Positions 37,804 through 55,989 of a stretch of 64,000 nucleotides of DNA are shown here, piece by piece. The DNA is from Mycobacterium sp. E787 (GTDB taxonomy: Bacteria > Actinomycetota > Actinomycetes > Mycobacteriales > Mycobacteriaceae). A program made the position numbers and the translations under genes. The notes beneath the pieces are model-generated. The model saw nothing but the letters and a program-made list of their open reading frames with translations. It searched no databases and was not told where the DNA came from. Within the stretch, counting starts at the first letter, position 1. Every line of letters starts with the position of its first letter. The stretch is from positions 1-64,000 of the forward strand of contig NZ_LZKL01000050.1 of assembly GCF_001668725.1 (NCBI RefSeq). The letters run 5' to 3'.

Positions 37804-37817
37804 GGGACTTTGGACCC
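37804..37817. promoter_or_regulatory. DosR-like box B between 37720 and 37908
   Basis: GGGACTTTGGACCC with TCG in front matches 12 of 14 consensus positions. It is about 90 bases before the small plus-strand gene and could serve either divergent gene. Confidence 0.7.
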
Positions 37818-37907
37818 TATCCGCAATCTCCGCGTGACGGAATAATGACCTCGTCTGACGTAACTTAGCGTGCGGCGGTTGCGGCTGAACAAAGGAGCAT
37901 GACGGTT

Positions 37908-38138: not shown

Positions 38139-38142
38139 CTTC

Positions 38143-38156
38143 GGGACCAACGGCAC
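38143..38156. promoter_or_regulatory. DosR-like box upstream of the 38219 acyltransferase
   Basis: TTCGGGACCAACGGCAC: the first half and its TTC flank match the consensus TTSGGGAC well, the second half less so (10 of 14 overall). It lies 62 bases before the acyltransferase start. Confidence 0.5.
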
Positions 38157-38218
38157 TACCGGCGCTCGCGGCGCGGACGCATAGTGATGCAGACCGCCGC
38201 GATCGGAGATGAGCGCCG

Positions 38219-39631: not shown

Positions 39632-41286
39632 CGTTCTTCGGAAGGCAGGTAACGCTTTTCCACCGCCCGCACGAGCTGGTCGCGGATGCGTTCCACGTCG
39701 GCGGCCCGGTGGGCCTCCAGCTCGTCCTCCCATGCCGCCACCAGCAACGCGAAGTCTTTGTCGGCGATCGTGCCCTCGAGCCAGTGCGAGAAATCCCCGC
39801 GTTCGAGATGGTATTCGAGTGCCTGCTGATCGAGATGTCTTACCGCAGTGCAGAAGTCGTGCATGCTCGCGGCCGCGGGGATCGATTCGCCGTTGGTCGT
39901 GCGAAAGTAGAACCGCCGTTCTGGCGGGAGCCGGACGTCGGCGTACTTGTGCCGGTGCCGCACGTGTTCGGTGCGGCGGTCCGCGATGGTGAACCCGCGT
40001 GGCGGCTGCGATCCGAAACGGATGGCGGCCCTCCGTCGCGAGGCGATGTCCGCCGCGATGTCGCGATCGCCGAGCGTTATCGCGACGTCGCTGGTATCGA
40101 TCTCGTGCGCGGGAAGCGCCGCCGGCGCGAACGAACACAACACGTAACCGCCGCGGCGTGCCCAGTGCGCTTCCTCGTCGCCGCCGAGCAGGTGGGCCTC
40201 GTCGTAGACGACCCAGTGCGGGAAGCCGCGCTGTTCGCGGTGCGCCTCGGCGGTCGACCGCAATCGGCGCACATAGTCGCTCTTGCTGGGCTCGGGCAGT
40301 CCCGACATGTCGACCACCACGCTGGAGTCCGGCCGCAGCGCGTTGACGACCTCGGCCGGTTCGGGCAGGTGGTGGCCCCCGTCGACAACCTGCACCTGGC
40401 TGAGCTGCTGCAGCTGCAGGTGATCACCCTCGGGGTCGATGACGAGCACGCAGTAGCCGGCCAGCACCCATTGTTCGGCCATCAGGCCGAGCAGGTAGCT
40501 CTTTCCCGAGGCGGCCGGTCCGGTCACCAGGATGCGGCCCTGGCTTCCCGGCAACCGGGTCGTGGCCCCGTCGTCGAACGTGCCGATGTCGACCCAGTGG
40601 CGTGGCGGGCACCAGCGTTGCGCCCCAGACAGATACGGCTGGGTGAGCAGCTCGGCGACACCGGCCCCGTCCGGTTGCTCCAGGACGACGTCGGCGAATC
40701 GCCGCACCGACGAGACGGCGTCGGCAACCGCGGCGCCGATCTCGGCGACGCCGAGCAACGACAAGTCGTTCTCGGCGTCCCCCACCGCCACGGCATTGTG
40801 CGGCGACAGGCTCATTCTTTCCAGGAGGGCGGCCAGCCCGGTGCCCTTGGTGGTGCCCGCCGGCAACACCATCAGCGCCGACCGGTTGCGGATGACCTGG
40901 TAGTCCATCCCCAGCTCACCGATCGCCTCGACGACGTCGGCGGTGTGCTCCTCACCGTCGATGGCGACCAGCACCTGGCCGCGCCGGCATGGGATGCCCC
41001 GCGCGGCGAGCGCCTCGTCCAGGCCGGGGTCCACCGGTTCCGCCAGCACGTGGGTGCGCCCGTCGATCACCGCCACCGCACCGTTTTCCAGTACCAGCGC
41101 ATCGACGTGATCGGCGAGCCAAGGGAATTCGGCATGCAATTCTGCTGCGATGCGGCCGGTGGCCAGCACGACGGTCAGGCCGTCCCGCCGGGCCCGGTCG
41201 ATCGCCGCAACGGCCGGCGGGGACAGCTTGCCGGCCGATGCAATGGTGCCGTCGACGTCGACTGCGACGACTTTAAAGAATGCCAC
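39628..41286 (-). CDS. HAD phosphatase-P-loop ATPase fusion protein
   Basis: A 552-residue fusion. Residues 1-215 are a Cof-type HAD hydrolase: motif I DVDGT (10-14), motif II TGR (43-45), motif III lysine near 147, motif IV GDAEND (169-174). Residues about 235-440 are a HerA/FtsK-like ATPase with Walker A GPAASGKS (256-263) and Walker B VVYDEAH (359-365). Residues about 455-550 resemble DUF5752 (FYFRTTNGESI, HLDQQALEYHLERGDFSHWL, ELEAHRA). The first half suggests a sugar-phosphate phosphatase; the second a nucleotide-driven partner. I know of no assigned function. Its stop overlaps the end of the convergent acyltransferase by four bases. Confidence 0.85.
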   Translation of the reverse strand: MAFFKVVAVDVDGTIASAGKLSPPAVAAIDRARRDGLTVVLATGRIAAELHAEFPWLADHVDALVLENGAVAVIDGRTHVLAEPVDPGLDEALAARGIPCRRGQVLVAIDGEEHTADVVEAIGELGMDYQVIRNRSALMVLPAGTTKGTGLAALLERMSLSPHNAVAVGDAENDLSLLGVAEIGAAVADAVSSVRRFADVVLEQPDGAGVAELLTQPYLSGAQRWCPPRHWVDIGTFDDGATTRLPGSQGRILVTGPAASGKSYLLGLMAEQWVLAGYCVLVIDPEGDHLQLQQLSQVQVVDGGHHLPEPAEVVNALRPDSSVVVDMSGLPEPSKSDYVRRLRSTAEAHREQRGFPHWVVYDEAHLLGGDEEAHWARRGGYVLCSFAPAALPAHEIDTSDVAITLGDRDIAADIASRRRAAIRFGSQPPRGFTIADRRTEHVRHRHKYADVRLPPERRFYFRTTNGESIPAAASMHDFCTAVRHLDQQALEYHLERGDFSHWLEGTIADKDFALLVAAWEDELEAHRAADVERIRDQLVRAVEKRYLPSEER

Positions 41287-41345
41287 AGCCTTTCCTATCT
41301 GCGTTTCCCCGCCCCGAAGCCAAGGCGGGCGGTATGGGTCTTTGC

Positions 41346-41361
41346 AGGGCCTTTTGGCATG
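41346..41361. promoter_or_regulatory. Weak DosR-like box upstream of the HAD-ATPase gene
   Basis: AGGGCCTTTTGGCATG lies about 60 bases before the HAD-ATPase start. It has the GGGCC-n4-GGC form but only 9 of 14 consensus matches. Confidence 0.3.
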
Positions 41362-41374
41362 CGCACGGCCGCGC

Positions 41375-42778
41375 TCAATCCACGCTCACGATGGATTCCA
41401 GCTCGGTCAGGCACTCCTCGGTGAGCGGGATCAGCGTGTCGATGTCGGGCACCAGGTCGGCGCCCGCGACGTAGCCGAAGCCGATCCGGTCCGCGTAGGA
41501 ACACGTCGTCACGTTGAAGGCCATTCCGTCGAACACCGTCGACACGGGATACATGTCGTCGACATGGGCCCCGTTCCAATACATTTCGGCGTCCGGACCG
41601 GGCACGTGCGAGATGGGCAGGTTGTAGCCGGTGCGCACCTTGGGCGCGAACGACAGCAGGGGGACGACCACCGTCGCGGCGATGCTCGGCGCGGTGGTCA
41701 GCAGCGATACCGCCGACCCCCGCTTGGCAACCGAGCGCTTTCCTTCCGACATCGACCGGTGGATCAGATCCAGCCGGGCGGCCGGGTCGTCGACATCGGT
41801 GCCCAGCGGACACAGCCAGAGGCCGAACATGTTGCCATGGTTGTCGTTCGCCGCGTCGTACTCGCGAGCGCGCACCGTGATCGGGCAGATGGCCACCAGC
41901 GACTGTTTGGGCAACTCCCCCCGCTCGAGCAGCCAGCGGCGCACCGCCCCGGCCACCATCGCGGTCACCACGTCATTGCCGGTGGCCCCGGTGGCCCGTT
42001 GCACCGCCTGGATGCGGTCCTTCGCCCAGCTGCCGGCCGCGACGACGCGTTTCGGCCCCAGGCGGCCGTTGAACCGCGTGTAGGGCGCCTCGAACGGCAA
42101 CACGGTGGTGTGCCCGACGAGCGTGTCGAAGACGTTCGAGATCTCGCCCGTGACGGCCCGCCCGATGAGCCCGACGCTCGATGTCGCGGCGCCCAGCAAC
42201 GAGCGCACCGGGGCCACCACGCGTGACGCCAGCCCGCCCGCCGCCGCGCGGGGCGAGGAGGCATGACGGCGGTCGGCGTAGAAGGGCGGCATCGACCGGC
42301 GTTGCGGGTCGGTGCTCAGCGCGTCGGCGATCATCTGGAAGCCGGCCACGCCGTCGATGACGGTGTGGTGCACCTTGATGTAGAACGCGAAGCGGCCACC
42401 GTCGAGGCCGTCGATCAGGTACGACATCCACATCGGCCGGCACCGGTCGAGCCGCTCGGCGTCCAGCTCGCCGATGAGCCGCCAGAACTCGTTGCGGTCC
42501 GCCGACACGGTCCTGCGCCGGCAATGTTGGCTGAGGTCAAGATCTTCCGCCTGGCGCCAGACCCACACGCCGCCGGTGTCCACGCCGCGGTGCGGGTACC
42601 GGCACAGCCTGGGGTCGATCGGGTCGTTGCCGGCGAGCGCCTCACGGTACAGGGCGTCGACGTAGTCCGGGCCCGCGTCCTGCGGCGGCGTCAGGATCAG
42701 CACGGCGCCGACGTGCATCGGGCTGGCCACCATCTCCGCGGCCATCATCGCCACGTCCAGCGGGTCCAGCGGATCCAT
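41375..42778 (-). CDS. WS/DGAT acyltransferase, second copy
   Basis: A 467-residue WS/DGAT enzyme, distantly related to the one at 38219. Catalytic HHxxxDG is VHHTVIDG at 137-143, preceded by RPMWMSYLIDGL. Other pieces: TGNDVVTAMVAGAVRRWLLERG, NMFGLWLCPLGT, GYNLPISHVPGPDAEMYWNGAHV, CSYADRIGFGYVAG and a C-terminal ELESIVSVD. The Asp of the N-terminal PLDPLDVAMM replaces the usual LSxxD(a/s). ATG at 42778; the gene follows the hydrolase at 42789 by ten bases and is likely co-transcribed with it. Confidence 0.92.
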   Translation of the reverse strand: MDPLDPLDVAMMAAEMVASPMHVGAVLILTPPQDAGPDYVDALYREALAGNDPIDPRLCRYPHRGVDTGGVWVWRQAEDLDLSQHCRRRTVSADRNEFWRLIGELDAERLDRCRPMWMSYLIDGLDGGRFAFYIKVHHTVIDGVAGFQMIADALSTDPQRRSMPPFYADRRHASSPRAAAGGLASRVVAPVRSLLGAATSSVGLIGRAVTGEISNVFDTLVGHTTVLPFEAPYTRFNGRLGPKRVVAAGSWAKDRIQAVQRATGATGNDVVTAMVAGAVRRWLLERGELPKQSLVAICPITVRAREYDAANDNHGNMFGLWLCPLGTDVDDPAARLDLIHRSMSEGKRSVAKRGSAVSLLTTAPSIAATVVVPLLSFAPKVRTGYNLPISHVPGPDAEMYWNGAHVDDMYPVSTVFDGMAFNVTTCSYADRIGFGYVAGADLVPDIDTLIPLTEECLTELESIVSVD

Positions 42779-42788
42779 TTCCGGGCGC

Positions 42789-44039
42789 CTAGGCCGGGCG
42801 GTCGCGCCGCGTCGACGGTTCGTCGAGGAGTCCGGACTGCCGCAGCGCGTCCCGGACGAAGTTCTGCACCGGGCGCGACCGGAAGAATCCGGTGTGACCG
42901 CCGGGATACCAGACGATTTCGGGTTTACCCCAGTGTTCCCAGAGGCGCACCACCTGCTCACGCGGATGCACGACCCGGTCGGCGACGCCGGCGTAGATGA
43001 ACCGGCCCCGCCTCGGCACGAGTGGCGTCAGCGACAGCGGCGACGTCATCCGGCCGATGGGTTCGGCCAGTTCCATCGTGCGCCGGCGCGGGTCGTGCTC
43101 GCTGAGGCCGGAATGGCGCCCCAGCAGCTGCACCAGGTCCGCCACCGGCACGCCGAGGATCGCGCACGTGAGGCCCTTTTCGAGGCTCGCGACCAGCGCC
43201 GCGATGTAGCCGCCGAGCGAAAGGCTGTTCAACCCGATCGGCGACTCGGGCTCCTGCAACCGGATCCAGGACAGCAGCCGCCGGATGTCCCACACCGCCT
43301 GACCGGTGGCGTGCACGTCGTCGAGGATGTCCTCGCCGGGAAAGATGGCGCTCTTGGGCAGGCCGCGGGCCCGGGGGCCGTGCATCGGCAGAACCGGCAT
43401 CACGACGTTCAGGCCGAGGTCGTCGTGCAGCTTCCAGGACCGAAACAGCGCGAGGTCCAGCGCGGCCCGACCCATTTCCGTGCCGTGCACGCACACCAGC
43501 CAGGGCCGCGGTTCGGGGTGGCGGAGCACCAGGGCGTATTCGCGGTCGTTCGAGGTGTAGCTCATCCACCGCTGCGCGCCAGGTTCGCCCGGCCGCGGCA
43601 GGTACCCGCTGTCGAAGGAGATTCGATAGAGAGATCGGGTGCGCCCCTTCACCTTTCGGACCGTGACGTCGGAGAGCGGCGGCGGCGCGCCGAAGAATCG
43701 CTTCGGGTGATCGAGCCATCCCCGCTTGCCGTAGAACTCCAGCCCCGCGAGCACCTCACCGGTGATGCGCTCGAACACCTCGGGCCGGCTGACCGGGCGG
43801 CGGGCCTTGAGACCCATCAGGACGATCTCGTCACGAAACGCCTGTGCGGCCAGGGCGAGGGTGGGGCGTGCGATGGGAAGTTCGCCGGGTGTCCCGTCGA
43901 GGTAGTCGCGCCACGACTGCGCGACGTACCGACCGGTGCCGGTGAGCGGTTCGACGGCCTTGCCCAGGCCATTGACGACCGGCGGATTCCAGCGCGGAGC
44001 GCCCGGTCCGCCGGGACCATGGCTGTCGGGTGTGGCCAT
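42789..44039 (-). CDS. Alpha/beta hydrolase in the lipid-storage cluster
   Basis: A 416-residue protein with an alpha/beta-hydrolase domain in its second half. The nucleophile elbow is NSLSLGGYIAAL, with Ser in place of the first Gly of GxSxG; the oxyanion strand is PWLVCVHGTEMGRAALDL and the likely catalytic His is in YPGGHTGFFRS. The N-terminal 150 residues form a helical lid-like region. It may be a lipase or esterase acting on acylglycerols made by the neighbouring synthase. It is divergent from a small gene, with two DosR-like boxes between them. Confidence 0.85.
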   Translation of the reverse strand: MATPDSHGPGGPGAPRWNPPVVNGLGKAVEPLTGTGRYVAQSWRDYLDGTPGELPIARPTLALAAQAFRDEIVLMGLKARRPVSRPEVFERITGEVLAGLEFYGKRGWLDHPKRFFGAPPPLSDVTVRKVKGRTRSLYRISFDSGYLPRPGEPGAQRWMSYTSNDREYALVLRHPEPRPWLVCVHGTEMGRAALDLALFRSWKLHDDLGLNVVMPVLPMHGPRARGLPKSAIFPGEDILDDVHATGQAVWDIRRLLSWIRLQEPESPIGLNSLSLGGYIAALVASLEKGLTCAILGVPVADLVQLLGRHSGLSEHDPRRRTMELAEPIGRMTSPLSLTPLVPRRGRFIYAGVADRVVHPREQVVRLWEHWGKPEIVWYPGGHTGFFRSRPVQNFVRDALRQSGLLDEPSTRRDRPA

Positions 44040-44075
44040 GGCGGCACGCTAACACCCGGCCGATCGGGCGCGTTA

Positions 44076-44089
44076 GGGACCTACGGCCC
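44076..44089. promoter_or_regulatory. DosR-like box upstream of the hydrolase
   Basis: GGGACCTACGGCCC, preceded by TTA, matches 11 of 14 consensus positions. It lies 37 bases before the minus-strand hydrolase start. Confidence 0.65.
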
Positions 44090-44163
44090 GGCCGAAGGCG
44101 CGAAAGTCCTTGACCGGCAGGCGCAGATCATCGGGCGGTTCGGGACGAATGAAGGGGCGCGCA

Positions 44164-44177
44164 GGGACTTTAGTCAC
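44164..44177. promoter_or_regulatory. DosR box, best in the window
   Basis: GGGACTTTAGTCAC matches GGGACTWWAGTCCC at 13 of 14 positions. It is 101 bases before the small gene at 44278 and 125 before the hydrolase, in their common promoter region. Confidence 0.85.
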
Positions 44178-44237
44178 TCGTGCCGGTGGCCTCAGCGTCG
44201 TACGGTCGGTGCGTCGGCGCAGCGCCGACGACCGCCC

Positions 44238-44270
44238 ACCAGGACCTCAAACCAGGACCTCAAACCAGGA
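44238..44270. repeat. 13-base tandem repeat before the 44278 gene
   Basis: The unit ACCAGGACCTCAA occurs twice in a row and is followed by a third partial copy (ACCAGGAG) that supplies the ribosome binding site. It may come from slippage; it places several AGGA units ahead of the start. Confidence 0.7.
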
Positions 44271-44277
44271 GTTGACC

Positions 44278-44544
44278 ATGACAGCACCCGAAAAATCCGA
44301 GCCGCGCTGGGCAGAACTCTCCGACGACGTGCTCGAATCCGTCGACAGCGGCCGCAAGCAGGCCATCGAGGCCGTCCGCAAGTTCGTCGACCAGATCAGT
44401 CCCGTGCTCCCGGAGCAGTCGCGCCGCAAGACCGTCGTCGACGCCGCCCTGGACCTGGCCGAGGAGTTGAGCGCGGCCCGCATCGAGTTCTTCCGCAGCG
44501 TGGTGCACAGCGCCGGTCAGGCGGTAAGCAAGCACGGCGAGTGA
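44278..44544 (+). CDS. Small helical protein behind a DosR box
   Basis: An 88-residue soluble, charge-rich protein predicted to be mostly helical (VLESVDSGRKQAIEAVRKFVDQISPVLP; KTVVDAALDLAEELSAARIEFFRSVVHSAG). I do not recognise a named family. ATG at 44278 follows AGGAGTTGACC. The excellent DosR box upstream and its own terminator hairpin downstream indicate a separately transcribed hypoxia gene. The helical pattern could pack on a membrane or on a partner helix bundle. Confidence 0.8.
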   Translation: MTAPEKSEPRWAELSDDVLESVDSGRKQAIEAVRKFVDQISPVLPEQSRRKTVVDAALDLAEELSAARIEFFRSVVHSAGQAVSKHGE

Positions 44545-44570
44545 ACCGGCGTCTCGACGACGGTTCAACC

Positions 44571-44607
44571 ATGGCCGGGCGGCTGCGACGAGGCACCGCC
44601 CGGCCAT
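44571..44607 (+). terminator. Hairpin after the small DosR-box gene
   Basis: ATGGCCGGGCGG and its exact complement flank a 13-base loop and are followed by TTGGTTTTCT, a T-rich run. It ends the plus-strand transcript and lies before the end of the convergent 44627 gene. Confidence 0.75.
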
Positions 44608-44626
44608 TTGGTTTTCTGGGTGTGGA

Positions 44627-47416
44627 TCATTCGACGTCCGCCTCCCCCGACAGATCCAGGACGACCTTGCGCGCGGCGCGCTGCAAGCCGACCGCAGCCG
44701 TCCAGTCAGCGCCCGAAGACCGGATCGGCCCGGCAACCGCGATGTCGACGGCTCCCCTCCGCGGAAAGTGGTGTTCCGGCCGCAGTATCGTCCGGGTTCC
44801 GCGGATGGCCATCGGGACGACGGGCACGCCGGTTTGGGCGGCCACCGCGAACGCCCCCATGTGGAAAGGCCGCAAACCTGGCGCACGGGCCAGCCGGCCC
44901 TCGGGGAAAATGACGAGCGACTGCCCGGCTCGCACCAGGGCGGCGAGCCGGCCGACGTCGGCCACCCCGTGTTCGCGCTCATGTCGCTCCACGAACTGGT
45001 GGCCGAGCCTCCTGAGCACGAATCCATTGAGCCCCTGGTGTTCAAGCACTTCAGCCGCGACGAACCGGTACCGCTCCGGCAGCACCGACGCCAGTGCCAG
45101 CGGGTCGATCCAGCTGGGATGGTTGGCCACCGCGATGGCGGTGCCCGCGGGCAGGTGGTCGAGGCCGTGCACGGTGATGGCCGTTCCGGTGAGCCGGGCC
45201 AGTAGCCGCACCGCCGCCCGGGCCACCTTCCAGCGCGACCGCGGCCGCGGCAGCACCAGCAACGACACGACCACCGCCAAGCCGAGGACCGTGTATACCG
45301 CCCACGCGTAGGCGGCGAAGCACATGGCACCCGCGGCGCGCCCGGCGCGGCGCATCGAAGGCGCCGCGCCGCGCAGCCGAAGGCGGGCCAATTCCCACCA
45401 CACCGCTCGCGGGCGCGCGCCCACCTTCCCAGCCTGATAGAGCTGCCGGCTCGCCGCCCGCCGGATCTTGCCGCTCGAGGTCTTCAGCACCGTGCGCGGC
45501 GGCGCCAGTACCACGTCGTCCGGTGCCACGCCCAGCAAATCGACCGCGGTGGAGGCGATTTCGGAGCGCAATGCGGCGCGGGCGTCGTCCCCGACGGCTC
45601 GGGTCTCGGCCATGACGACCAGGCGTTCGGCGCCCCCCGCCGAGTCCGGCGAAGCGAACACCGCGACGCACCCCTTGCGGACGCCCGCCAGGTTGCCCAC
45701 GGCCTCTTCGAGCTCCGCCGGGTGCAGGTTGCGCCCGGCCCGGATGATCACGTCCTTGACCCGGCCGGTGATGTAGAGGTCGGCGTCGGCCATGTACCCG
45801 AGGTCGCCCGTGTCCAGCCAGTCGTCGTGGAACAGCGCCCGCGTCGCGGGCGTGTTGTTGAGATAGCCGGCGGTGGCCGACGGACCGCGGAACTCGACGC
45901 GGCCTTCGCGGCGGTCGCCCAGCTCGTTGCCGGCGGCGTCGACGACGCGGATCTCGTGGCCCGGCAGGGGCCGGCCGCACGCGACAAAACGCAAGTCCCG
46001 CTCGCCCGGCGTCGCCGGCTCGGCCCGCCCGGAGCGCACGAACGCGTCCCGACGGATTCGGTCGATCAGCGGGCCGCGCCCCAACGGCGGGAAGGCCAGC
46101 CCCACGGAGGACTCGGCCAGCCCGTACACGGGTGTCATGGCCTCACGGCGAAAACCGTAGGGGGCGAACCGATCACCGAACCGCTCGATGGTCGTGGCGC
46201 TGACCGGCTCGGCGCCGTTGTAGGCCAATCGCCACGAGCTCAGATCGAGCCCGTGGATCTCGTCGTCGCGGATCTTGGTGAGGCACAGCTCGTAGGCGAA
46301 GTTCGGGCCGGCCGACATGGTCGCCCGGTTGGCGTGGATCTGCCAGAGCCACCCCGAGGGTCGGATCAAAAACGACTGCGGGCTCATCACCACCAGCGGG
46401 ACGCCGAAATACATGCAACCGAGCCACGCGCCGATCAGACCCATGTCGTGATACAGCGGCAGCCAGCTGACGAAAGTGTCCGACCCGGAAGCCGCCGCGG
46501 CCCGACCCATCACGCGGATGTTGGCCAGCAGGTTCCGATGCGTCAGCGCGACCCCCTTGGGCGCTCCGGTGCTGCCCGAGGTGTACTGCACCAGCGCAAG
46601 ATCGTCGGGCCGCGGCGCCGGGAAGGACGGGAGCGGGTCTTCGCCTGCGCCGGAGAGCGATTCGGGGACGACGACGTGGCGCAGGCTTTCGACGTTCGCG
46701 CGCAACAGGTGCCCGAGGGTGACTGCCTCCGGCACGGTGACCAGCAGGGTGGCGCGGGCGTTGGCGAGGATGCCGGTCGTGCGCCGCAGGTGGTCGGCCA
46801 GCTGCGAGGGCCGCGCCGGTGGGTAGACGGGAACCGGGACGGCCCCCGCGAGCACCACCCCGGCGAAGGTGACGAAATACGCGCGGCACGTGGGCAACAT
46901 GATGGCCACCGTCTCGCCCGGCATCACCTCGTGCGCGATCAGGCCGGCCGCCAGGGCAGCCGCCTCCCGGTACAGCGCGGCATAGGTGACGTCGGTGCCG
47001 TTCGGGGGGCCGTCGGCGTCGTCGAGGACGCGGATGTGCGTGCGGCCCGGAGTCGCGCCGACGTGCCAGGCCAGGGCCTCGTTCAGGGTCGCCGCCGTTT
47101 CGGGCAGCAGGCCGGCCGGCCCGGTGACCGGCGGTGACACCGGGCCCCGGTCCGTTTCCGCGGCGGGGCGGCTCCGCGCCACGGCCGCCACGAGGTCACG
47201 CGGCGTCTCCGCGGTCGCCAGGATGTGCGGCGGCAGCACCACCCCGAACTTGTCCTGCACGCGCAGCAGCAACTCGCCCAGCTCCAGGCTGCCGATGCCC
47301 AGGTTGTCGAAAGCGCTGTCGAGCGTTACCGGGGGCGGTGTGGCGTGCGGGTGCACCTCGGCAACGAGGCCGCGCACCAACGCGAGGATGTCAGCGGGGC
47401 ACTCTTGAGTTGCCAT
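44627..47416 (-). CDS. ACP-AMP ligase-PlsC acyltransferase fusion
   Basis: A 929-residue protein with three units: an acyl-carrier domain (about 1-85; phosphopantetheine Ser 43 in LGIGSLELG), a fatty acyl-AMP ligase domain (about 100-665; [11 protein letters not shown] 278-288, DTGD 535-538, catalytic Lys 650 in KTSSGKIRR), membrane segment(s) near 695-722, and a PlsC acyltransferase (about 740-925; NHPSWID 765-771, FPEGR 837-841). It resembles Aas-type acyl-ACP synthetase/acyltransferases with the carrier attached. Probable role: activate a fatty acid, load it on its own ACP, and acylate a lysophospholipid or glycerolipid. Confidence 0.9.
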   Translation of the reverse strand: MATQECPADILALVRGLVAEVHPHATPPPVTLDSAFDNLGIGSLELGELLLRVQDKFGVVLPPHILATAETPRDLVAAVARSRPAAETDRGPVSPPVTGPAGLLPETAATLNEALAWHVGATPGRTHIRVLDDADGPPNGTDVTYAALYREAAALAAGLIAHEVMPGETVAIMLPTCRAYFVTFAGVVLAGAVPVPVYPPARPSQLADHLRRTTGILANARATLLVTVPEAVTLGHLLRANVESLRHVVVPESLSGAGEDPLPSFPAPRPDDLALVQYTSGSTGAPKGVALTHRNLLANIRVMGRAAAASGSDTFVSWLPLYHDMGLIGAWLGCMYFGVPLVVMSPQSFLIRPSGWLWQIHANRATMSAGPNFAYELCLTKIRDDEIHGLDLSSWRLAYNGAEPVSATTIERFGDRFAPYGFRREAMTPVYGLAESSVGLAFPPLGRGPLIDRIRRDAFVRSGRAEPATPGERDLRFVACGRPLPGHEIRVVDAAGNELGDRREGRVEFRGPSATAGYLNNTPATRALFHDDWLDTGDLGYMADADLYITGRVKDVIIRAGRNLHPAELEEAVGNLAGVRKGCVAVFASPDSAGGAERLVVMAETRAVGDDARAALRSEIASTAVDLLGVAPDDVVLAPPRTVLKTSSGKIRRAASRQLYQAGKVGARPRAVWWELARLRLRGAAPSMRRAGRAAGAMCFAAYAWAVYTVLGLAVVVSLLVLPRPRSRWKVARAAVRLLARLTGTAITVHGLDHLPAGTAIAVANHPSWIDPLALASVLPERYRFVAAEVLEHQGLNGFVLRRLGHQFVERHEREHGVADVGRLAALVRAGQSLVIFPEGRLARAPGLRPFHMGAFAVAAQTGVPVVPMAIRGTRTILRPEHHFPRRGAVDIAVAGPIRSSGADWTAAVGLQRAARKVVLDLSGEADVE

Positions 47417-47419
47417 CGG

Positions 47420-47902
47420 TCACGACGCGGCGGCCGACCCCCCGGCCCGTTCGCGCATGCGGGCCGCGAAGGCCGCGGCCCGATCCAGGTCGTGGTCGTT
47501 CGGCCGTCCCCTGTTGATCCCGCCGATGAAGCCGAACGGCCCGACGGTGTCGAAGCCCCGGCAGGAAAACGAACCGATCACCTCAAAGCCCTTGGCTTCC
47601 AGGTGGTTCCGCACCGGCTTGTGGTAGTCCAGCAGCGGGATTTCCCGGGCGCCGCTGGTGAAGAAGGTGAACGCGCGCACGCCTGCGACGGTCGGCAGGC
47701 GTCGCATCAACTTGCGCAGCCTGTCGTCGACCGCCATGTAGTAGATCCCGGAGCCGAAGCCGACGAGGTCGTATTGGTGCAGGGCTTCGGGGTCCACCGA
47801 CTCCGGTTCGACGACCTCGGCGTCCAGCACCTCAGCCATCCGCTCGGCCACGCGGCGGGTGTTGCCGTGCGATTTGGACACGCAGACGATGAGCGACTTC
47901 AT
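47420..47902 (-). CDS. Flavodoxin-like protein
   Basis: A 160-residue protein with the flavodoxin fold: FMN-phosphate loop VSKSHGNTRRVAERMAE, then LVGFGSGIYYMAVDDRLRKLMRRLP and FTFFTSGAREIPLLDYHKPVRNHL. It should carry FMN electrons or act as an FMN-dependent reductase; the partner is unknown. ATG at 47902. It lies three bases upstream of the fusion gene's start, on the same strand, and is likely co-transcribed with it. Confidence 0.88.
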   Translation of the reverse strand: MKSLIVCVSKSHGNTRRVAERMAEVLDAEVVEPESVDPEALHQYDLVGFGSGIYYMAVDDRLRKLMRRLPTVAGVRAFTFFTSGAREIPLLDYHKPVRNHLEAKGFEVIGSFSCRGFDTVGPFGFIGGINRGRPNDHDLDRAAAFAARMRERAGGSAAAS

Positions 47903-47994
47903 AGGCCCATGCTGGCCGCGCACCGCACCGCCCGGAAGGGCGCAAAGGCACGAAACGCGCGGGGCATAAGTCACCTCGGGGTCACCCGGTCGCC

Positions 47995-48972
47995 TCAGTC
48001 GAACGCGTGGATCACCTGGCGCGCCACGCGCTGAATCTTCAGGCGCGTCTGCCGATCGAGGGGCAACCGTGCGGCGTCCGGAATTTTGCCGGTCGTGGTG
48101 ATCACCCCGGGTTCCTCATGCTCCCACCGGGCGTTGACCTTGTCGCCCAACACCCGCGCGGGCGGGTTGTCGGCGAGCACCCGGGCGTGAAAGCGCTCGA
48201 TGCCGTCGACCCGCGCGGCGACCGCCAGCGCGACGAGCAGCAGAGTCCCGATCCCGCGGTTCTGATAGGCGTCCGCCACCGTGAGCGCGACCTCCGCCGA
48301 GGTCGGGTCGTCCTCGTCGCGGATGAAGCGGGCGTCGGCGACGACCGGCCCGTCCGCGCAGGTGGTGACGACCCAGACGAAATGGTCGAGGTAATCGACC
48401 TCGAACAGGTAGGCCAGCCCCGACGCGCTGGGGGCGCCACCCTGGTAGCGCCGGTACAGCGTCTCCCGCGAGAATGCGCCTTCGCTGGTGAACCGCTCGG
48501 CGTCGCCCGGCAGCACGGGGCGCAGCAGGAACCCGGTGCCGTCTTTGGCCGACACCGGGATGGGGTCGATGTAGGCGATCAACCGCTGGCGCGCCGTGCG
48601 CACCATCCGGTCGGCGACGACGGGCGTGGCCAGCATGCGCTCGAAGGCGCCGTGATAGCCGATGTAACCCCGCACATCGTCCTTCGCGATCACCGTGGCC
48701 GTCCTGGGTTTGCCTCGCAGCAAAGCGATTTCGCCGATGATCGTCCCGGGTGACAGCTCGGCGACCGTCACCTGGCCGCGCGGTCCGGCGTGCCGGATCT
48801 CCACCCGGCCCGACGTGATGATCGCGAACGACAACGCGTTTTCGCCCTGGCGCATCAACACCTCGCCGGCGGACGCGCGCAGCGGTTGCAGCTGAGCGGC
48901 CAATGGCGCGAGGTCCCGCGCCGGAATGCCGGCGAACACGTCCAGCTCCGACAACTCCCCGCGGCCCGTCAT
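47995..48972 (-). CDS. cAMP-binding protein lysine acetyltransferase (Rv0998/Pat-like)
   Basis: A 325-residue protein joining a cyclic-nucleotide-binding domain (about 1-140; GEVLMRQGENALSFAIITSGRVEI, the cAMP pocket LSPGTIIGEIALLRGKPRTATV) to a GNAT acetyltransferase domain (about 150-320; FLLRPVLPGDAERF, acetyl-CoA site YQNRGIGTLLLVALAVAARV). M. tuberculosis Rv0998 acetylates acyl-CoA synthetases and other enzymes in response to cAMP; several AMP ligases lie nearby and could be targets. ATG at 48972 is tentative; GTG two codons earlier (overlapping GTGATG) is possible. Confidence 0.9.
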   Translation of the reverse strand: MTGRGELSELDVFAGIPARDLAPLAAQLQPLRASAGEVLMRQGENALSFAIITSGRVEIRHAGPRGQVTVAELSPGTIIGEIALLRGKPRTATVIAKDDVRGYIGYHGAFERMLATPVVADRMVRTARQRLIAYIDPIPVSAKDGTGFLLRPVLPGDAERFTSEGAFSRETLYRRYQGGAPSASGLAYLFEVDYLDHFVWVVTTCADGPVVADARFIRDEDDPTSAEVALTVADAYQNRGIGTLLLVALAVAARVDGIERFHARVLADNPPARVLGDKVNARWEHEEPGVITTTGKIPDAARLPLDRQTRLKIQRVARQVIHAFD

Positions 48973-49057
48973 CACCCCGATGTACGGTACGCGACCGGCG
49001 CCGCGCCCGCCCGGGCAATTCGCGGGTAAGCGCGGTGACAAAAGGCCCTGTCGCGCC

Positions 49058-49075
49058 GGGACTTCGGCAAGTCCC
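49058..49075. promoter_or_regulatory. Inverted GGGACTT repeat with wide spacing
   Basis: GGGACTT and AAGTCCC are separated by CGGC, giving an 18-base perfect inverted repeat. Both halves equal a DosR half site, but the centre is four bases longer than in a normal box. It lies 85 bases before the acetyltransferase gene and 122 before the small gene. Confidence 0.5.
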
Positions 49076-49167
49076 ACGCGAGACCAAAGCACCGCGGCAG
49101 TCGTGCTGTTGGCCTCTAGGGCGCGGCCATGCGCGGTGGTCGGATGGACCGATACGGCTAAGCCGGG

Positions 49168-49196
49168 GAGACGACGGAGACGACGGGGAGACGACG
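49168..49196. repeat. GGAGACGAC tandem repeat
   Basis: Three copies of GGAGACGAC (the last preceded by extra G) run into the start codon of the gene at 49197, supplying its ribosome binding site. Confidence 0.6.
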
Positions 49197-49460
49197 ATGT
49201 ACGCAGCGACATGGCGGCCCCATTGGCCACAGCGCAGGCCGGCGAGCACGGTCTATCAGCTGACCGATTGCCTGCACGACGGGCATACCGCACGGGTGGC
49301 CGCCGACGAGATCACGAGCACGGTCTCCGGGTGGTTGGCCGAACTGGGCGCCCACAGCCCGTTGGTCGACGACCTCGAGCGCGCGGTGCGCGGCGGCGAT
49401 TGGGCCGGCGCGAGTGCCATCGGTGAGCGCTTGTCCATTCGGGTCGCTGTCGCCGGCTGA
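49197..49460 (+). CDS. Small orphan protein beside the DosR-like sites
   Basis: An 87-residue protein, MYAATWRPHWPQRRPASTVYQLTDCLHDG..., with a Trp/Arg-rich N-terminus, one Cys, and a helical second half (VAADEITSTVSGWLAELGAHSPLVDDLERAVRGGDWAGASAIGERL, split). It has no family I can name. ATG at 49197 is preceded by GGGGAGACGACG. Its place in the cluster and the inverted repeat at 49058 suggest hypoxia-linked expression. Confidence 0.65.
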   Translation: MYAATWRPHWPQRRPASTVYQLTDCLHDGHTARVAADEITSTVSGWLAELGAHSPLVDDLERAVRGGDWAGASAIGERLSIRVAVAG

Positions 49461-49486
49461 GCGCCCCGCCGGCGAGCCACCATTCC

Positions 49487-49500
49487 GGGACTTTCGACAC
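49487..49500. promoter_or_regulatory. DosR-like box upstream of the fadD gene
   Basis: GGGACTTTCGACAC with TTCC in front matches 11 of 14 consensus positions, 45 bases before the fadD start. Confidence 0.6.
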
Positions 49501-49544
49501 TATCCGCGACACACGGGCCCACAGCAGGATCGGGGGTTGACACC

Positions 49545-51395
49545 ATGAACACGCCCCTCGCCTCGCTGGAGAGGCCCGACCTCAGCAAGATCGAGAACCG
49601 CGCGCCTTCGGTGGCGCACCTGTTCCTCGACCGCGTCTCCGCGACCCCGGACGCGGAGGCGTTTCGCTATCCGCAGGACCACAGCTGGGAGAGCGTGACC
49701 TGGCGGCAGGTCGGTGACCGCGTCCACAACATCGCCGGCGGGCTGATCTCGCTCGGGATCGCCTCGGAGGATCGGGTGGCGCTGGCGTCGTCGACGCGCT
49801 ACGAGTGGGTGCTCGTCGATTTCGCGGTGATGTGCGCCGGCGCGGCGACCACCACGGTGTACCCGACCACCAACGCCGGCGACGTCGCGTACATCGTCGC
49901 CAATTCGGGAAGCCGGGTGGTGGTCGCCGAAAACCAAAGCCAGGTCGACAAATTGCTGCAGCACCGCGCCGAACTGCCCGACGTGGGCAAGGTGGTGATC
50001 ATCGACGGCAACGGCGACGGCGACTGGGTGATGACGCTGGCCGAACTGGAGCAGATGGGCAAGCAGCTGCTGGCCGACTCCCCCGATGTCATCGACGAGC
50101 GCGTCGCGACCATCGGTCCCGACCAGCTCGCCAGCCTCATCTACACCTCCGGGACCACCGGGCGGCCGAAGGGCGTGCGGCTCACCCACGGCGCCTGGAC
50201 GTACACCGCGGCGGCCATCGACGCGCTGGGCATCCTCGGCCCCGACGACCTGAACTTCCTGTGGCTGCCGTTGGCGCACGCGTTCGGCAAGGTGATGCTG
50301 GCGCTGGCGCTGCAGATCGGCTACGCGACCGCGATCGACGGCCGCGTCGACCGGATCGTCGACAACCTGGCGACGCTGCGGCCCACCTTCATGGGCGCGG
50401 CCCCACGCATCTTCGAGAAGGCACACGCCCACATCGAGGACATGGTCGCCCGGCGGGGCAGGCTCAGCAAGCAGGTGTTCGACTGGGCGATCGGGCTGGG
50501 TGTGAAGGTGTCGGAAACCCGGCAAGCCGGCAAGAAGCCGTCGGCGCTGGCCGCGCTGGCCTACCAGGTGGCCGACCGGGTGTTCTTCTCCACGATCCGC
50601 GAGCGGTTCGGCGGCCGGCTGAGGTTCTTCGTCTCCGCGGCCGCCGCCCTGGACCGTGACGTCGCGCGATGGTTCGACGCCGTCGGCATCATCGTGCTGG
50701 AGGGCTACGGGCTGACGGAGACCGCGGCGGCGTCATTCATCAACCGCCCCCACGCGTACCGGTTCGGAACCGTCGGATGGCCGTTCCCGGCCACCGAGGC
50801 CAGGATTGCCGACGACGGCGAAATCCTGCTCAGGGGGCCGGGTTTGATGACCTCGTACCACGATCTCCCCGACGCCACCGCCGAGGCGCTCGACGCCGAC
50901 GGCTGGTTTCACACCGGCGACATCGGCGAGATCGACGACGACGGCTACCTGCGGATCACCGACCGCAAGAAGGACATGTTCAAGACCTCACAGGGCAAGT
51001 ACGTGGCACCGTCGGCGATCGATGCGAAATTCAAGGGCCTGTGCCCGTACGCCAGCGAACTGCTCGTCTACGGCGAGGGGAAGCCATATTGCGTCGCGCT
51101 GGTCAGCCTCGACGGCGAAGCGATCGCCGAGTGGGCAGCAAGGAACGGCCTGGCCGGCAAGTCGCTCGCCGAGATCGCTTGCGACGACAAGACGCAGGAA
51201 CTGATCGCCGGCTACGTCGATGCCCTCAACCTGGAGCTGAACCGCTGGGAGCAGATCAAGAGGTTCACCATCCTCGACCGCGAGCTCACCGTCGAATCCG
51301 GCGATCTCACGCCGAGCCTGAAGCTTCGCCGCAAGGTCGTCATCGAAAAGTTCGAGGACCGCCTCAGCGACCTCTACGACCGCCCGTCGGGATGA
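49545..51395 (+). CDS. Long-chain fatty acid-CoA ligase (FadD15-like)
   Basis: Acyl-CoA synthetase of 616 residues with ANL motifs in order: IYTSGTTGRPKGVRLTH (A3), LPLAHAFGKVM, VLEGYGLTETAAASFIN (A5), WFHTGDIGEIDDDGYLRITDRKKDMFKTSQGKYV (A7-A8, split), and the C-terminal lysine region LTPSLKLRRKVV. It activates long-chain fatty acids with ATP and CoA, feeding lipid storage. Its TGA overlaps the pncB start (ATGA), an unusual pairing of lipid activation with NAD salvage. A DosR-like box lies upstream. Confidence 0.9.
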   Translation: MNTPLASLERPDLSKIENRAPSVAHLFLDRVSATPDAEAFRYPQDHSWESVTWRQVGDRVHNIAGGLISLGIASEDRVALASSTRYEWVLVDFAVMCAGAATTTVYPTTNAGDVAYIVANSGSRVVVAENQSQVDKLLQHRAELPDVGKVVIIDGNGDGDWVMTLAELEQMGKQLLADSPDVIDERVATIGPDQLASLIYTSGTTGRPKGVRLTHGAWTYTAAAIDALGILGPDDLNFLWLPLAHAFGKVMLALALQIGYATAIDGRVDRIVDNLATLRPTFMGAAPRIFEKAHAHIEDMVARRGRLSKQVFDWAIGLGVKVSETRQAGKKPSALAALAYQVADRVFFSTIRERFGGRLRFFVSAAAALDRDVARWFDAVGIIVLEGYGLTETAAASFINRPHAYRFGTVGWPFPATEARIADDGEILLRGPGLMTSYHDLPDATAEALDADGWFHTGDIGEIDDDGYLRITDRKKDMFKTSQGKYVAPSAIDAKFKGLCPYASELLVYGEGKPYCVALVSLDGEAIAEWAARNGLAGKSLAEIACDDKTQELIAGYVDALNLELNRWEQIKRFTILDRELTVESGDLTPSLKLRRKVVIEKFEDRLSDLYDRPSG

Positions 51396-52754: not shown

Positions 52755-52768
52755 GGGCTAATGACCCT
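52755..52768. promoter_or_regulatory. DosR-like box upstream of the Balon-type gene
   Basis: GGGGCTAATGACCC matches 11 of 14 consensus positions, 63 bases before the start at 52832. Confidence 0.6.
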
Positions 52769-52831
52769 GCCGCGGGCCGCGGTGGGTTCATACGGTTGCC
52801 AGCATCGTGGCGCGACGGCGAAAGGGATGGC

Positions 52832-53956
52832 ATGCGATCGGATCGCCTCAAGTGGCTGGTAAAAGCGCAGGGGCCGTTTGCCTCGGTCTATTTCGACGAC
52901 TCGCACGACACCCAGGATGCCGTCGAGCAGCTCGAGACCACCTGGGACGACATCCGCAAGCAGCTCGAGGACCTGGGCGCGGCCGCGGCGCTCATCGACA
53001 ACATCGAGGGGGCCGTGCTGCACAACCGACCGGCCGTCGGCCGGCGCGGCCGCGCGGTGATCGCGACCGGCGATGAGGTGCTGATCAACGAGCCGCTCGA
53101 CGGGCCGCCGCCGGCGATGGTGGTTCGCCTGTCCGATTACCCGTACGTCGTGCCGCTGATCGAGTTCGAGATGCAGCGCCCCACCTACGTTTTCGCCGCC
53201 GTCGATCACACCGGCGCCGACATCACCCTCTATCAGGGCGACACCGTCAGCTCGACGAGCGTCGAGGGCGACGGGTATCCGGTGCACAAGCCGGCCAGCG
53301 CCGGCTGGAACGGCTACGGCGACTTCCAGCACACGACCGAGGAAGCCATCCGCATGAACTGCCGCGCGGTCGCCGACGAACTCACGCGACTGGTGGACGG
53401 CGCCGACCCCGAGGTGGTGTTCCTGTGCGGCGAGGTCCGTTCGCGGGCGGACGTCATCGCGCAGTTGCCACGGCGGGTGGCCGACCGGATTTCGGAGTTG
53501 CACGCCGGGTCCCGCAAGAGCGGAATCGACGAGGATGAGGTCCACCGGTCGACAGCCGCCGAGTTCGCTCGGCGCCGCGAAGCCGGGCTGGCCGGGCTCG
53601 CCGATCGGTTCCAGGCCGAACTCGGCCGCGGCTCGGGCCTGGCCGCCCAGGGCGTTGCCGCCGTGTGCGCGGCGCTGCGCGAGGGCGACGTCGACACGCT
53701 GCTGATCGGCGAACTGGGCGACGCGACCGTCGTCTCCGGCCGGGCGCTCACCACCGTGGCGCCCGATGCCGACGCGCTGTCCGACTTCGGCGAACCGGTG
53801 CAGCGGGTGGCGCGGGCCGACGAGGCGTTGCCGTTCGCCGCGATCGCGGTGGGTGCCGCGCTGGTGCTGGCCGGCGACCGGATCGGGCCCGCGGAAGGCG
53901 TCGCCGCGTTGCTGCGATATGTCGCGAGCGACGCGGTCGGCCGCCGGGGCGCATGA
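52832..53956 (+). CDS. Ribosome hibernation factor of the Balon family (Rv2629-like)
   Basis: A 374-residue protein related to archaeal/eukaryotic release factor aRF1/Dom34 folds. Balon-family proteins bind the vacant A site and stay with EF-Tu on idle ribosomes; M. tuberculosis Rv2629 is a DosR member of the family. The sequence keeps GPFASVYFDDSHDTQDAVEQ, the domain with GWNGYGDFQHTTEEAIRMNCRAVADEL, and the C-terminal AVCAALREGDVDTLLIGELGD. The start is ATG 52832 with AAAGGGATGG before it. A DosR-like box precedes it. Confidence 0.9.
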   Translation: MRSDRLKWLVKAQGPFASVYFDDSHDTQDAVEQLETTWDDIRKQLEDLGAAAALIDNIEGAVLHNRPAVGRRGRAVIATGDEVLINEPLDGPPPAMVVRLSDYPYVVPLIEFEMQRPTYVFAAVDHTGADITLYQGDTVSSTSVEGDGYPVHKPASAGWNGYGDFQHTTEEAIRMNCRAVADELTRLVDGADPEVVFLCGEVRSRADVIAQLPRRVADRISELHAGSRKSGIDEDEVHRSTAAEFARRREAGLAGLADRFQAELGRGSGLAAQGVAAVCAALREGDVDTLLIGELGDATVVSGRALTTVAPDADALSDFGEPVQRVARADEALPFAAIAVGAALVLAGDRIGPAEGVAALLRYVASDAVGRRGA

Positions 53957-53989
53957 CTTCCTTTGGAACAGACTTCCTTTGGGAACAGA
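53956..53989. repeat. Imperfect 16-base tandem repeat after the Balon-type gene
   Basis: ACTTCCTTTGGAACAG is followed at once by ACTTCCTTTGGGAACAG, differing only by one inserted G. It lies between the stop of the Balon gene and the hydrolase start. Confidence 0.75.
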
Positions 53990-54008
53990 GCAGTGTCAGG
54001 AGCGTGCA

Positions 54009-54662
54009 ATGACTCAACGTGACGAAGAAATCCAGGTGAGCACGGGGCCGGTCTCCGTGGCCGGCCACCTCGTCATCCCTGAGCATCCCAAGGGTGTCAT
54101 CGCCTTCGCGCACGGCAGCGGAAGCAGCCGGCACAGCCCGCGGAATCGATTCGTCGCCGAGGTCCTCAACAAGGCCGGATTCGCCACCGTGCTCTTCGAC
54201 CTGCTGACGCCCGGTGAGGAACGCGACCGCGCCAACGTCTTCGACGTAGGGTTGCTTGCGCGCCGACTGGTCGACGTCACGGCCTGGCTGGCGGCCCAAC
54301 CCGACACCGCGTCACTGCCGGTCGGCTACTTCGGGGCCAGCACCGGCGCGGGCGCGGCGCTGGTGGCGGCCGCACACCCGGGGGTCAAGGTGGCGGCCGT
54401 GGTATCCCGCGGCGGGCGGCCCGATTTGGCCGGTGAGGCGCTGCGCAGCGTGCATGCCCCGACCCTGCTGATAGTGGGCGGACACGACCAGACGGTGCTG
54501 CGGCTCAACCGGCAGGCGCAGGCCGTGATCCCGGGCGAGTGTGAGGTCGCCGTCATTCCGGGTGCCACCCACCTCTTCCAGGAGCCGGGCGCGCTCGGGC
54601 GAGTGGCCGCGCTGGCCAGCGACTGGTTCACCGACCGCCTGGCGGTACAGGTTCAGGTTTAG
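54009..54662 (+). CDS. Dienelactone-hydrolase-like alpha/beta hydrolase
   Basis: A 217-residue alpha/beta hydrolase with oxyanion strand VIAFAHGSGSSRHSPRNRFVAE, nucleophile elbow YFGASTGAGAALVAAA (GxSxG), acid in LLIVGGHDQTVL and His in VIPGATHLFQEPG. It matches the hydrolase domain that in M. tuberculosis is fused to a phosphoribosyltransferase in Rv0571c, another DosR gene; here it stands alone. ATG at 54009 follows CAGGAGC. The substrate is unknown. It is in the same direction as, and 52 bases after, the Balon gene. Confidence 0.85.
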   Translation: MTQRDEEIQVSTGPVSVAGHLVIPEHPKGVIAFAHGSGSSRHSPRNRFVAEVLNKAGFATVLFDLLTPGEERDRANVFDVGLLARRLVDVTAWLAAQPDTASLPVGYFGASTGAGAALVAAAHPGVKVAAVVSRGGRPDLAGEALRSVHAPTLLIVGGHDQTVLRLNRQAQAVIPGECEVAVIPGATHLFQEPGALGRVAALASDWFTDRLAVQVQV

Positions 54663-54663
54663 G

Positions 54664-54702
54664 GCGGCGGTCCCGGATGGGGGGGTTTTCCGGGACCGCC
54701 GC
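54664..54702. terminator. Hairpin between the hydrolase and RafH genes
   Basis: Perfect 14-base arms (GCGGCGGTCCCGGA and its complement) flank an 11-base loop with seven Gs. It begins just after the hydrolase stop and could serve both convergent genes. Confidence 0.8.
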
Positions 54703-54719
54703 GGCTCGGGAGTGGCTCC

Positions 54720-55523
54720 TCAGTCGGCCGGTGTGATCAGGCCGTAGTGCCCGTCGTAGCGGTGATACAACACGGTGCCGCGGTCCCGGGCGGCGTCGAC
54801 GAAGAACAGGAACGGCAGGCCGAGCAGGCCTATCCGCTCGATCGCCTCGTCCACGGTGAGCCGCGGAGCCGGCTGCGGGCTGATGGTCAGCGGCAGGTCG
54901 AACGGCGCCAGTTCGTCCGACAGTTCCGGAATCACCTGCGCCAGGCGATATTCCGTGGGACCGTGCCGGTACAGCACACTGTCCTGCTGGCTGCCGCGCT
55001 CCGTGAAGAGGTGGAAGTCGTAGTCGAGCAGCTCCATCTCGAGCGCGGCCTCGTCGATGGTGCAATCGGGGAGGCTGTACGACTTGTGCCGGATGATGCG
55101 GCGTTCGCTTTCGGGCCTCGGAAAGTAGTTCGGCCGGTGGGTGGGTTCGGATTCATGGCGCCATTCGTGCGGGGCGGCCTTGGGCATGCCGCCTCGCCTG
55201 GCTTCCCAGTTCTCGGCGGCGCGTTCGAGTCGACGACGCAGCCGCGCCTCGAGCCGATCGATCGCCTCCCGCTCGGTGACGCCCTCCACCTGGGCGCGGA
55301 TCGGCCGGCCGTTGACGTCGAGGTTCGCCTGCGCGATGACGCGGCGGGCCACCGCCGGATCGCCGTGCTCGCTCAGCCGCACGTGCGCGTGCAGCACCGG
55401 TTCATGGGCGAAGCGTCCGAGCTCGCCGATCTTCGTCCGCGCGTAGTCTTCGGCCTCGGGCAGCTGACCATGCGTCGTCACCTCGACATCCAGGACGGCC
55501 GGTAAATCGGGTCGGTGTCTCAT
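54720..55523 (-). CDS. rafH: Hypoxia ribosome-stabilising factor RafH (Rv0079-like)
   Basis: A 267-residue two-domain protein: an N-terminal HPF/RaiA-like domain (VLDVEVTTHGQLPEAEDYARTKIGELGRF, VRLSEHGDPAVARRVIAQANLDVNGRPIRAQ) with a helical linker, and C-terminal repeats of about 60 residues (IIRHKSYSLPDCTIDEAALEMELLDYDFHLFTE; LTVDEAIERIGLLGLPFLFFVDAARDRGTVLYHRYDGHYGLI). Family members (M. smegmatis RafH, M. tuberculosis Rv0079) bind and protect ribosomes in hypoxia and are DosR-controlled. ATG at 55523. A DosR-like box lies upstream. Confidence 0.92.
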   Translation of the reverse strand: MRHRPDLPAVLDVEVTTHGQLPEAEDYARTKIGELGRFAHEPVLHAHVRLSEHGDPAVARRVIAQANLDVNGRPIRAQVEGVTEREAIDRLEARLRRRLERAAENWEARRGGMPKAAPHEWRHESEPTHRPNYFPRPESERRIIRHKSYSLPDCTIDEAALEMELLDYDFHLFTERGSQQDSVLYRHGPTEYRLAQVIPELSDELAPFDLPLTISPQPAPRLTVDEAIERIGLLGLPFLFFVDAARDRGTVLYHRYDGHYGLITPAD

Positions 55524-55559
55524 GATTCGTTGCTACGCTCCTTCCAAATCGTTGCTGTA

Positions 55560-55573
55560 GGGCCGAAGGTCAC
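55560..55573. promoter_or_regulatory. DosR-like box upstream of rafH
   Basis: GGGCCGAAGGTCAC, or GTGACCTTCGGCCC on the gene strand, 10 of 14 matches, 36 bases before the rafH start. Confidence 0.5.
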
Positions 55574-55599
55574 CGCGGGCGCGGTACTCGGTCGCACGT

Positions 55600-55881
55600 T
55601 CAGCGGTGCAGACCGGTGACCGGCTGGTGGGTGTTGGCCTGGATATCGGTGGAAGTCAACGCCATTAGCTGATTGGACAAATCCGACAGGGCTCGGGCAA
55701 TCGCCAGTTCGTCGCCGATCCGGGCCACCGGCTCGTCGGCGGGGTCAAGTCGCGCCAAACCGATCCCGACGAAATCCTTGCCAGCCCACGACAGCCGGGC
55801 CTTCGCCCGGGTGCGCTCTTCGTGCTCTTCGATCAGCACATCGATCCGGCAGGTCTTGCCGCCGTCGTCCTTGCCCGTCAT
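55600..55881 (-). CDS. DUF1876 protein (Rv1738-like)
   Basis: A 93-residue protein with the pattern KTCRIDVLIEEHEERTRAKARLSWAGKDFVGIGLARLDPADEPVARIGDELAIARALSDLSNQL (in pieces), very close to M. tuberculosis Rv1738, one of the most strongly DosR-induced genes. Structural work showed that Rv1738 resembles ribosome hibernation-promoting factors, so it may bind the ribosome. The start is ATG 55881 with AAGGAGACC. It lies directly upstream of rafH on the same strand. Confidence 0.92.
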   Translation of the reverse strand: MTGKDDGGKTCRIDVLIEEHEERTRAKARLSWAGKDFVGIGLARLDPADEPVARIGDELAIARALSDLSNQLMALTSTDIQANTHQPVTGLHR

Positions 55882-55951
55882 CGCCGGTCTCCTTGTCTTG
55901 GCGATTGATTTGCCCGATTAGATGCGACCATCACGTGCCGGTCGGTAAGTA

Positions 55952-55965
55952 GGGGCGAAAGTCAT
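55952..55965. promoter_or_regulatory. DosR-like box upstream of the Rv1738-like gene
   Basis: GGGGCGAAAGTCAT, or ATGACTTTCGCCCC on the gene strand, 10 of 14 matches, 70 bases before the start. Confidence 0.5.
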
Positions 55966-55989
55966 CAGGTTCCGGGCAAAGGAAACCGC

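Follow-up and report, generated by a model that had tools for sequence, protein, structure and literature searches.

A Balon, RafH and Rv2632c gene cluster with conserved DosR-like boxes in Mycobacterium sp. E787, a candidate module for hypoxic ribosome hibernation

Genes at the locus and their products

The window analysed in this work is a stretch of 64,000 nucleotides from Mycobacterium sp. E787 (contig NZ_LZKL01000050.1, positions 1 to 64,000). It carries the genes of Balon, a ribosome hibernation factor, of RafH, a long hibernation-promoting factor (HPF) of the DosR type, and of an Rv2632c orthologue, which are proposed here as a probable ribosome-hibernation module. The three open reading frames (ORFs) are intact and start where a preliminary description of the window had placed them. 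They are arranged in two convergent units (Table 1) where Balon and an alpha/beta-hydrolase gene are read rightward, and Rv2632c and then RafH are read leftward. The three genes lie within about 3 kb as had been described, and they are not strictly side by side because the hydrolase gene stands between Balon and RafH. The hairpin between the two units is probably a bidirectional terminator.

The assignments of the first two ORFs to the Balon family and to RafH are borne out. At 588 bits, the Balon ORF matches the ribosome-bound Rv2629 of PDB 8v9k; it also exceeds the cut-off of the NCBIfam equivalog NF052289 (Rv2629_fam_RHF; 544 bits against 320), and contains the baeRF domain PF18844 (166 bits). 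Neither the GGQ nor the NIKS motif is found in the window Balon protein, and the same absence has been stated for Rv2629 and Msmeg1130 (PMC10901736). The RafH ORF matches PDB 8whx at 399 bits over residues 11-267, and it consists of an S30AE N-domain (PF02482) and two PF16321 stretches (enlarged C-domain). It resembles RafH MSMEG_3935 / Rv0079 (PMC10799931) in this match to the full structure and in its linker. The anti-Shine-Dalgarno contacts W111 and R120 of M. smegmatis RafH (PMC10799931) correspond to W121 and R130 here, which are kept in 38 of the 38 aligned rows with a residue there and in 40 of 41, respectively. The window RafH differs from MSMEG_3935 / Rv0079 in that its gene lies at the Balon/Rv2632c locus.

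The short ORF had been described as an Rv1738 homologue, and this identity was rejected. The protein is an Rv2632c orthologue because it scores higher against Rv2632c (PDB 2fgg, 160 bits) than against Rv1738 (PDB 4wpy, 91 bits). It shares the Pfam family (PF08962, Rv2632c-like; 97 bits) and the fold of both, and its model exhibits a beta3-alpha fold with a predicted local distance difference test score (pLDDT) of 78.

Table 1. Features of the cluster and of the adjoining island, in window coordinates.
Feature	Position	Strand	Remarks
Tandem DosR-like boxes, Balon promoter	52730-52749, 52751-52770	+	TCGGTGACCTAAGACCCGCA, CTGGGGGCTAATGACCCTGC; 21 bp apart
Balon / Rv2629-family ribosome hibernation factor	52832..53956	+	374 aa
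Alpha/beta-hydrolase 3' of Balon	54009..54662	+	often retained in the neighbourhood
14-bp hairpin between convergent units	54664..54702	.	-33.7 kcal/mol, z -3.4
RafH (long HPF, DosR type)	54720..55523	-	267 aa
RafH DosR-like box	55557..55576	-	GCGGTGACCTTCGGCCCTAC; start 53 bp 5' of ATG
Rv2632c orthologue	55600..55881	-	93 aa; modelled beta-beta-beta-alpha
Rv2632c DosR-like box	55949..55968	-	CTGATGACTTTCGCCCCTAC
Remainder of DosR-like island	34427..51395	.	nrdZ (34427-), hsp20 (36623+), wax-ester synthases/tgs (38219+, 41375-), fadD (49545+)
Best upstream boxes of the island	36587-36606, 37754-37820, 38140-38159, 44073-44092, 49484-49503		

DosR-like boxes and conservation across the genus

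The preliminary description had given each of the three genes a DosR-like box. This holds firmly for Balon, whose tandem boxes are strong (p about 0.01, where p values refer to the best site within 150 bp upstream). In 19 of the 26 orthologues the first Balon box sits at -102 to -127 and scores at least 22.5, and a -10-like element (CATACGGT) lies about 20 bp 3' of the second box. Closely packed boxes, and a proximal box that overlaps the -35 element, have been described for DevR promoters (PMC3029386), and Rv2629 has been noted as carrying a DosR motif (PMC2867773).

The boxes of RafH and Rv2632c are marginal when scored alone, and their real support is their constant position among the orthologues. 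By best-of-upstream scoring alone the RafH boxes are no better than shuffles, and what supports them is the constant -53/-54 position. The RafH box scores weakly against the consensus, yet TGACYTTYGGCCCT is seen again about 50 bp 5' of RafH at numerous loci from each of the two RafH paralogue groups. A related site (e.g. GTGACTTTYGCCCCTAC) is found 5' of Rv2632c in nearly all readable orthologues, even those without RafH at the locus, and is upgraded to TTCGGGACTTCCGCCCCTAC in the nebraskense group. Conservation of the box position upstream is thus strong for Balon and moderate for RafH and Rv2632c, as expected of DosR-regulon genes. The RafH and Rv2632c boxes have the 15-mer TGACYTTYGSCCCTA (at most one mismatch) in common, which occurs nowhere else in the 64 kb (0 expected, 100 shuffles); this result is descriptive because the pattern was derived from these sites and their orthologues.

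The cluster forms the end of a 34-56 kb stretch rich in DosR-like boxes. The best upstream site has p < 0.05 in 10 of the 51 putative window genes, nine of which lie at 34-53 kb. A simple search of the whole window for GGGAC(N4)GGNCC gave no excess (48 against 60 expected from shuffles), and the box claims therefore rest on upstream positions and orthologues.

RafH has a TAGCA(A) -10-like element about 12 bp 5' of its start and, in the window, no Shine-Dalgarno at the right distance, so that its mRNA is probably leaderless in this species. This is not general because some RafH genes at nrdZ loci carry a Shine-Dalgarno-like sequence. Most members of the nebraskense group have lost the sequence from the -10-like element to the start of Rv2632c, together with the Shine-Dalgarno that the window has there (upstream of L003:12312 and L004:16831). 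This suggests that Rv2632c of that group has switched to a leaderless mRNA.

The co-occurrence survey proposed in the preliminary description was run within the genus, on a sample of 149 genomes where close hits were picked by identity, by hand. A close Rv2629-type Balon was identified in 24 genomes, a close Rv2632c in 20, and a RafH in 49. All three genes are present in 16 genomes and lie within 7 kb in nine. Balon accompanies Rv2632c in 17 of 20 genomes (Fisher p 4e-14, uncorrected for shared ancestry). Further cluster loci were identified in M. terramassiliense (L001), M. sp. E3251 (L003), M. nebraskense (L005), and M. sp. 852014-52450 (L006). Related genomes exhibit the gene order Balon-hydrolase-Rv2632c; in M. 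simiae (L008) and at loci L023-L027 these three genes lie together, with RafH about 10 kb off or not found.

At every three-gene locus, Rv2632c and RafH are neighbours on the same strand. Most cluster genomes leave 12-32 bp between the end of Rv2632c and the start of RafH, which there has no box of its own. The gap in the window and at L014 is 76-78 bp, and the RafH box is still present. The two genes presumably form one operon in most cluster genomes, and we read the loss of the box as a handover of RafH to the Rv2632c promoter.

The RafH tree places 15 cluster RafHs in one clade (support 100/98), and the Balon-near RafHs of L002 and L022 in the other paralogue clade. At least two changes are forced for RafH joining the Balon locus, and three are counted on the tree; RafH joined either twice or once before an old duplication. 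Several relatives have two RafH genes, of which the second is divergent and lies at a usp locus.

These findings bear on a neighbourhood explanation, where a DosR island gathers hypoxia genes of any kind and ribosome factors are not specially grouped. The island also has nrdZ, hsp20, wax-ester synthases, fadD, and nearby usp genes, and other species have RafH in the vicinity of nrdZ or usp genes, as this explanation predicts. It is nonetheless held unlikely: RafH lies near Balon in two separate RafH clades, relatives also carry archease-RtcB next to RafH or between it and Balon, and in a published survey across phyla Balon genes most often adjoin raiA, with hypoxia-factor and RtcB neighbours noted (PMC10901736, Nature 2024).

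The window lacks the archease and RtcB genes (RNA repair), which stand between RafH and Balon in L014 (L014:6313-8169). In L038-L041, RafH has nrdZ as its neighbour on one side and RtcB, archease, and mostly a PhoU-like gene on the other (L038:2520-4376). In the sister genome G134, part of the cluster is duplicated in tandem within a partly masked stretch (L012:5000-9993), which may be genuine or an artefact of assembly. The order there is Rv2632c, RafH, hydrolase, Balon 3' end, and TetR, then Rv2632c, half of RafH, a hydrolase fragment, and full Balon.

Proposed role on the ribosome in hypoxia

With a probability of roughly 0.7, the cluster is a ribosome-hibernation module of the DosR (hypoxia and nitric oxide) regulon. 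Phosphorylated DosR would turn on both convergent units. Judging from the structures of Balon, Rv2629, and Msmeg1130, Balon would fill the A site and reach the decoding and peptidyl-transferase centres, and EF-Tu-GDP could sit on its C-terminal domain. The second unit would yield Rv2632c and RafH. The RafH N-domain would occupy the decoding centre, its linker the anti-Shine-Dalgarno, and its C-domain the 30S platform, by which RafH would hold the 70S together without 100S dimers. Balon and RafH would most likely work on one and the same 70S, since the distance of Balon from the mRNA channel leaves room for RaiA beside it. Rv2632c would most likely be an accessory protein of the hypoxic programme that is expressed with RafH. 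We infer DosR control in this species, the joint action of Balon and RafH, and any ribosomal role of Rv2632c.

Joint parking by Balon and RafH under DosR is the best explanation because of published ribosome binding and the kept tryptophan and arginine contacts of RafH. Rv2629 binds the A site, Msmeg1130 has been seen with EF-Tu-GDP, and Rv2629 inhibits translation as strongly as RaiA/Rv0079 (PMC10901736). RafH occupies the decoding centre, the anti-Shine-Dalgarno, and the platform, which blocks the mRNA path, and holds the 70S together (PMC10799931). RafH control by DosR has also been published. The combined parking programme that had been proposed for all three proteins is therefore well supported for Balon and RafH, on the basis of their families, conserved boxes, clustering, and Balon-RaiA structures, and is not supported for Rv2632c, whose likeness to HPF is loose and for which no demonstration of ribosome binding was found.

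The host genome (Mycobacterium, 5.7 Mb, 133 contigs) encodes a DosR orthologue that is 86% identical and has VKN as its DNA-reading motif; a Usp-like gene lies upstream of it, which is also the arrangement of Rv3134c-dosR. Among named relatives, M. terramassiliense is the closest one found (80% for Balon, 97% for TetR). The two Balons of the host genome both belong to the Rv2629 family, and besides them it encodes a single RafH, another S30AE protein, and two PF08962 proteins. No comparable box was found at the second Balon (L060) or at the other HPF (L061).

Several points weigh against a DosR-controlled hibernation module. The evidence for DosR control and joint action in this species is the sequence itself. 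The box consensus is that of Park et al. (2003) with weights set by hand, and the single RafH and Rv2632c boxes each reach only p about 0.065. A DosR paralogue (66% identical) in the host genome could use such sites. The cluster genomes are not independent because clustering in the main clade is inherited. The published list of hypoxia-induced M. tuberculosis genes has Rv0079, Rv2629, and Rv1738, and Rv2632c is missing from it. Rv2632c of that species belongs to a PhoP-activated operon with Rv2633c (PMC4038636). Beyond its own family, the Rv2632c model exhibits weak likeness to double-stranded RNA-binding domains and then to HPF (template modelling score, TM, 0.44-0.47; E 0.2-0.3).

The last two points favour another explanation, where Balon and RafH are true hibernation factors and Rv2632c is a passenger with an unrelated stress role that is co-regulated by proximity. 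Rv2632c is induced by CO2 and acidic pH in M. tuberculosis. The short HPF-like fold that had been described for it stands as a loose resemblance and not as membership of the HPF family, since no PF02482 match was found and the best HPF fold gave TM 0.47 with E 0.21. However, Rv2632c keeps its place beside RafH in every three-gene locus, mostly with the short gap, RafH has seemingly ceded its own promoter to that of Rv2632c, and the box of Rv2632c is retained where RafH is absent. An even chance is given to this explanation. The net charge of Rv2632c (-3) was dropped as an argument against rRNA binding since the N-domain of RafH is itself close to neutral. Reviews list Rv2632c as a putative ribosome-stabilising factor on the basis of its kinship to Rv1738 and its starvation induction.

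Balon and RafH may instead be alternatives that divide the ribosome pool, where Balon serves ribosomes with mRNA or tRNA and RafH serves empty 70S. Balon has been reported to bind with or without mRNA, RafH blocks the mRNA path and the anti-Shine-Dalgarno (PMC10799931), and the two genes belong to separate transcription units with different box strengths. Against this, Balon and RaiA were seen on one ribosome in Psychrobacter, and such a division of labour is considered unlikely.

Compared with the published Balon-raiA neighbourhoods (PMC10901736), the locus is similar in that Balon neighbours a gene of the HPF family at a stress locus. It differs in that the HPF is a DosR-type RafH preceded by Rv2632c and a DosR-like box is conserved at each unit. 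The Balon-RafH programme is not new in kind because both the adjacency and the simultaneous binding of Balon and RaiA have been published. The preliminary description knew of no such cluster, and this stands for the three-gene version: no publication was found on the three-gene arrangement or on DosR-controlled Rv2632c, in a search that left most subscription journals outside. The genes of Balon (Rv2629) and Rv2632c also lie close together in M. tuberculosis. In that species, however, RafH (Rv0079) is encoded elsewhere and Rv2632c is PhoP-activated with Rv2633c (PMC4038636). A DosR-like box replaces the PhoP operon at the window locus, and from this difference Rv2632c seems to have been rewired from PhoP to hypoxia control in this clade. 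The new elements are this rewiring and the Rv2632c-RafH operon, given that the Balon-HPF pairing was already published.

A bolder and rather unlikely proposal is that Rv2632c-type proteins are a third hibernation factor that works with RafH. In this clade, Rv2632c would have moved from PhoP to DosR control and joined RafH in one operon, and leaderless RafH (in the nebraskense group also Rv2632c) could still be made after the anti-Shine-Dalgarno is covered. If the cluster acts as one programme, mycobacteria of this group provide a small natural setting in which to ask whether a single ribosome carries both Balon and RafH. The pairing of RafH with Rv2632c is a genetic argument for testing whether the Rv2632c/Rv1738 family acts on the ribosome, a role that has so far been based on structural resemblance and expression.

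Surroundings of the cluster

Genes for usp and M50-CBS protease proteins lie just outside the box-rich stretch. A pncB-like (nicotinate phosphoribosyltransferase) gene, assigned from its ORF alone, lies at 51392-52741 between fadD and Balon, and its stop codon overlaps the first Balon box. A search with the window gene gave no match in related loci, where fadD mostly lies directly 5' of Balon. A hemerythrin-like protein (59346-59831) has a sub-threshold match to the NCBIfam PA2171 ribosome-binding persister family (70 bits against a cut-off of 190), and such a neighbour is kept beside many cluster loci.

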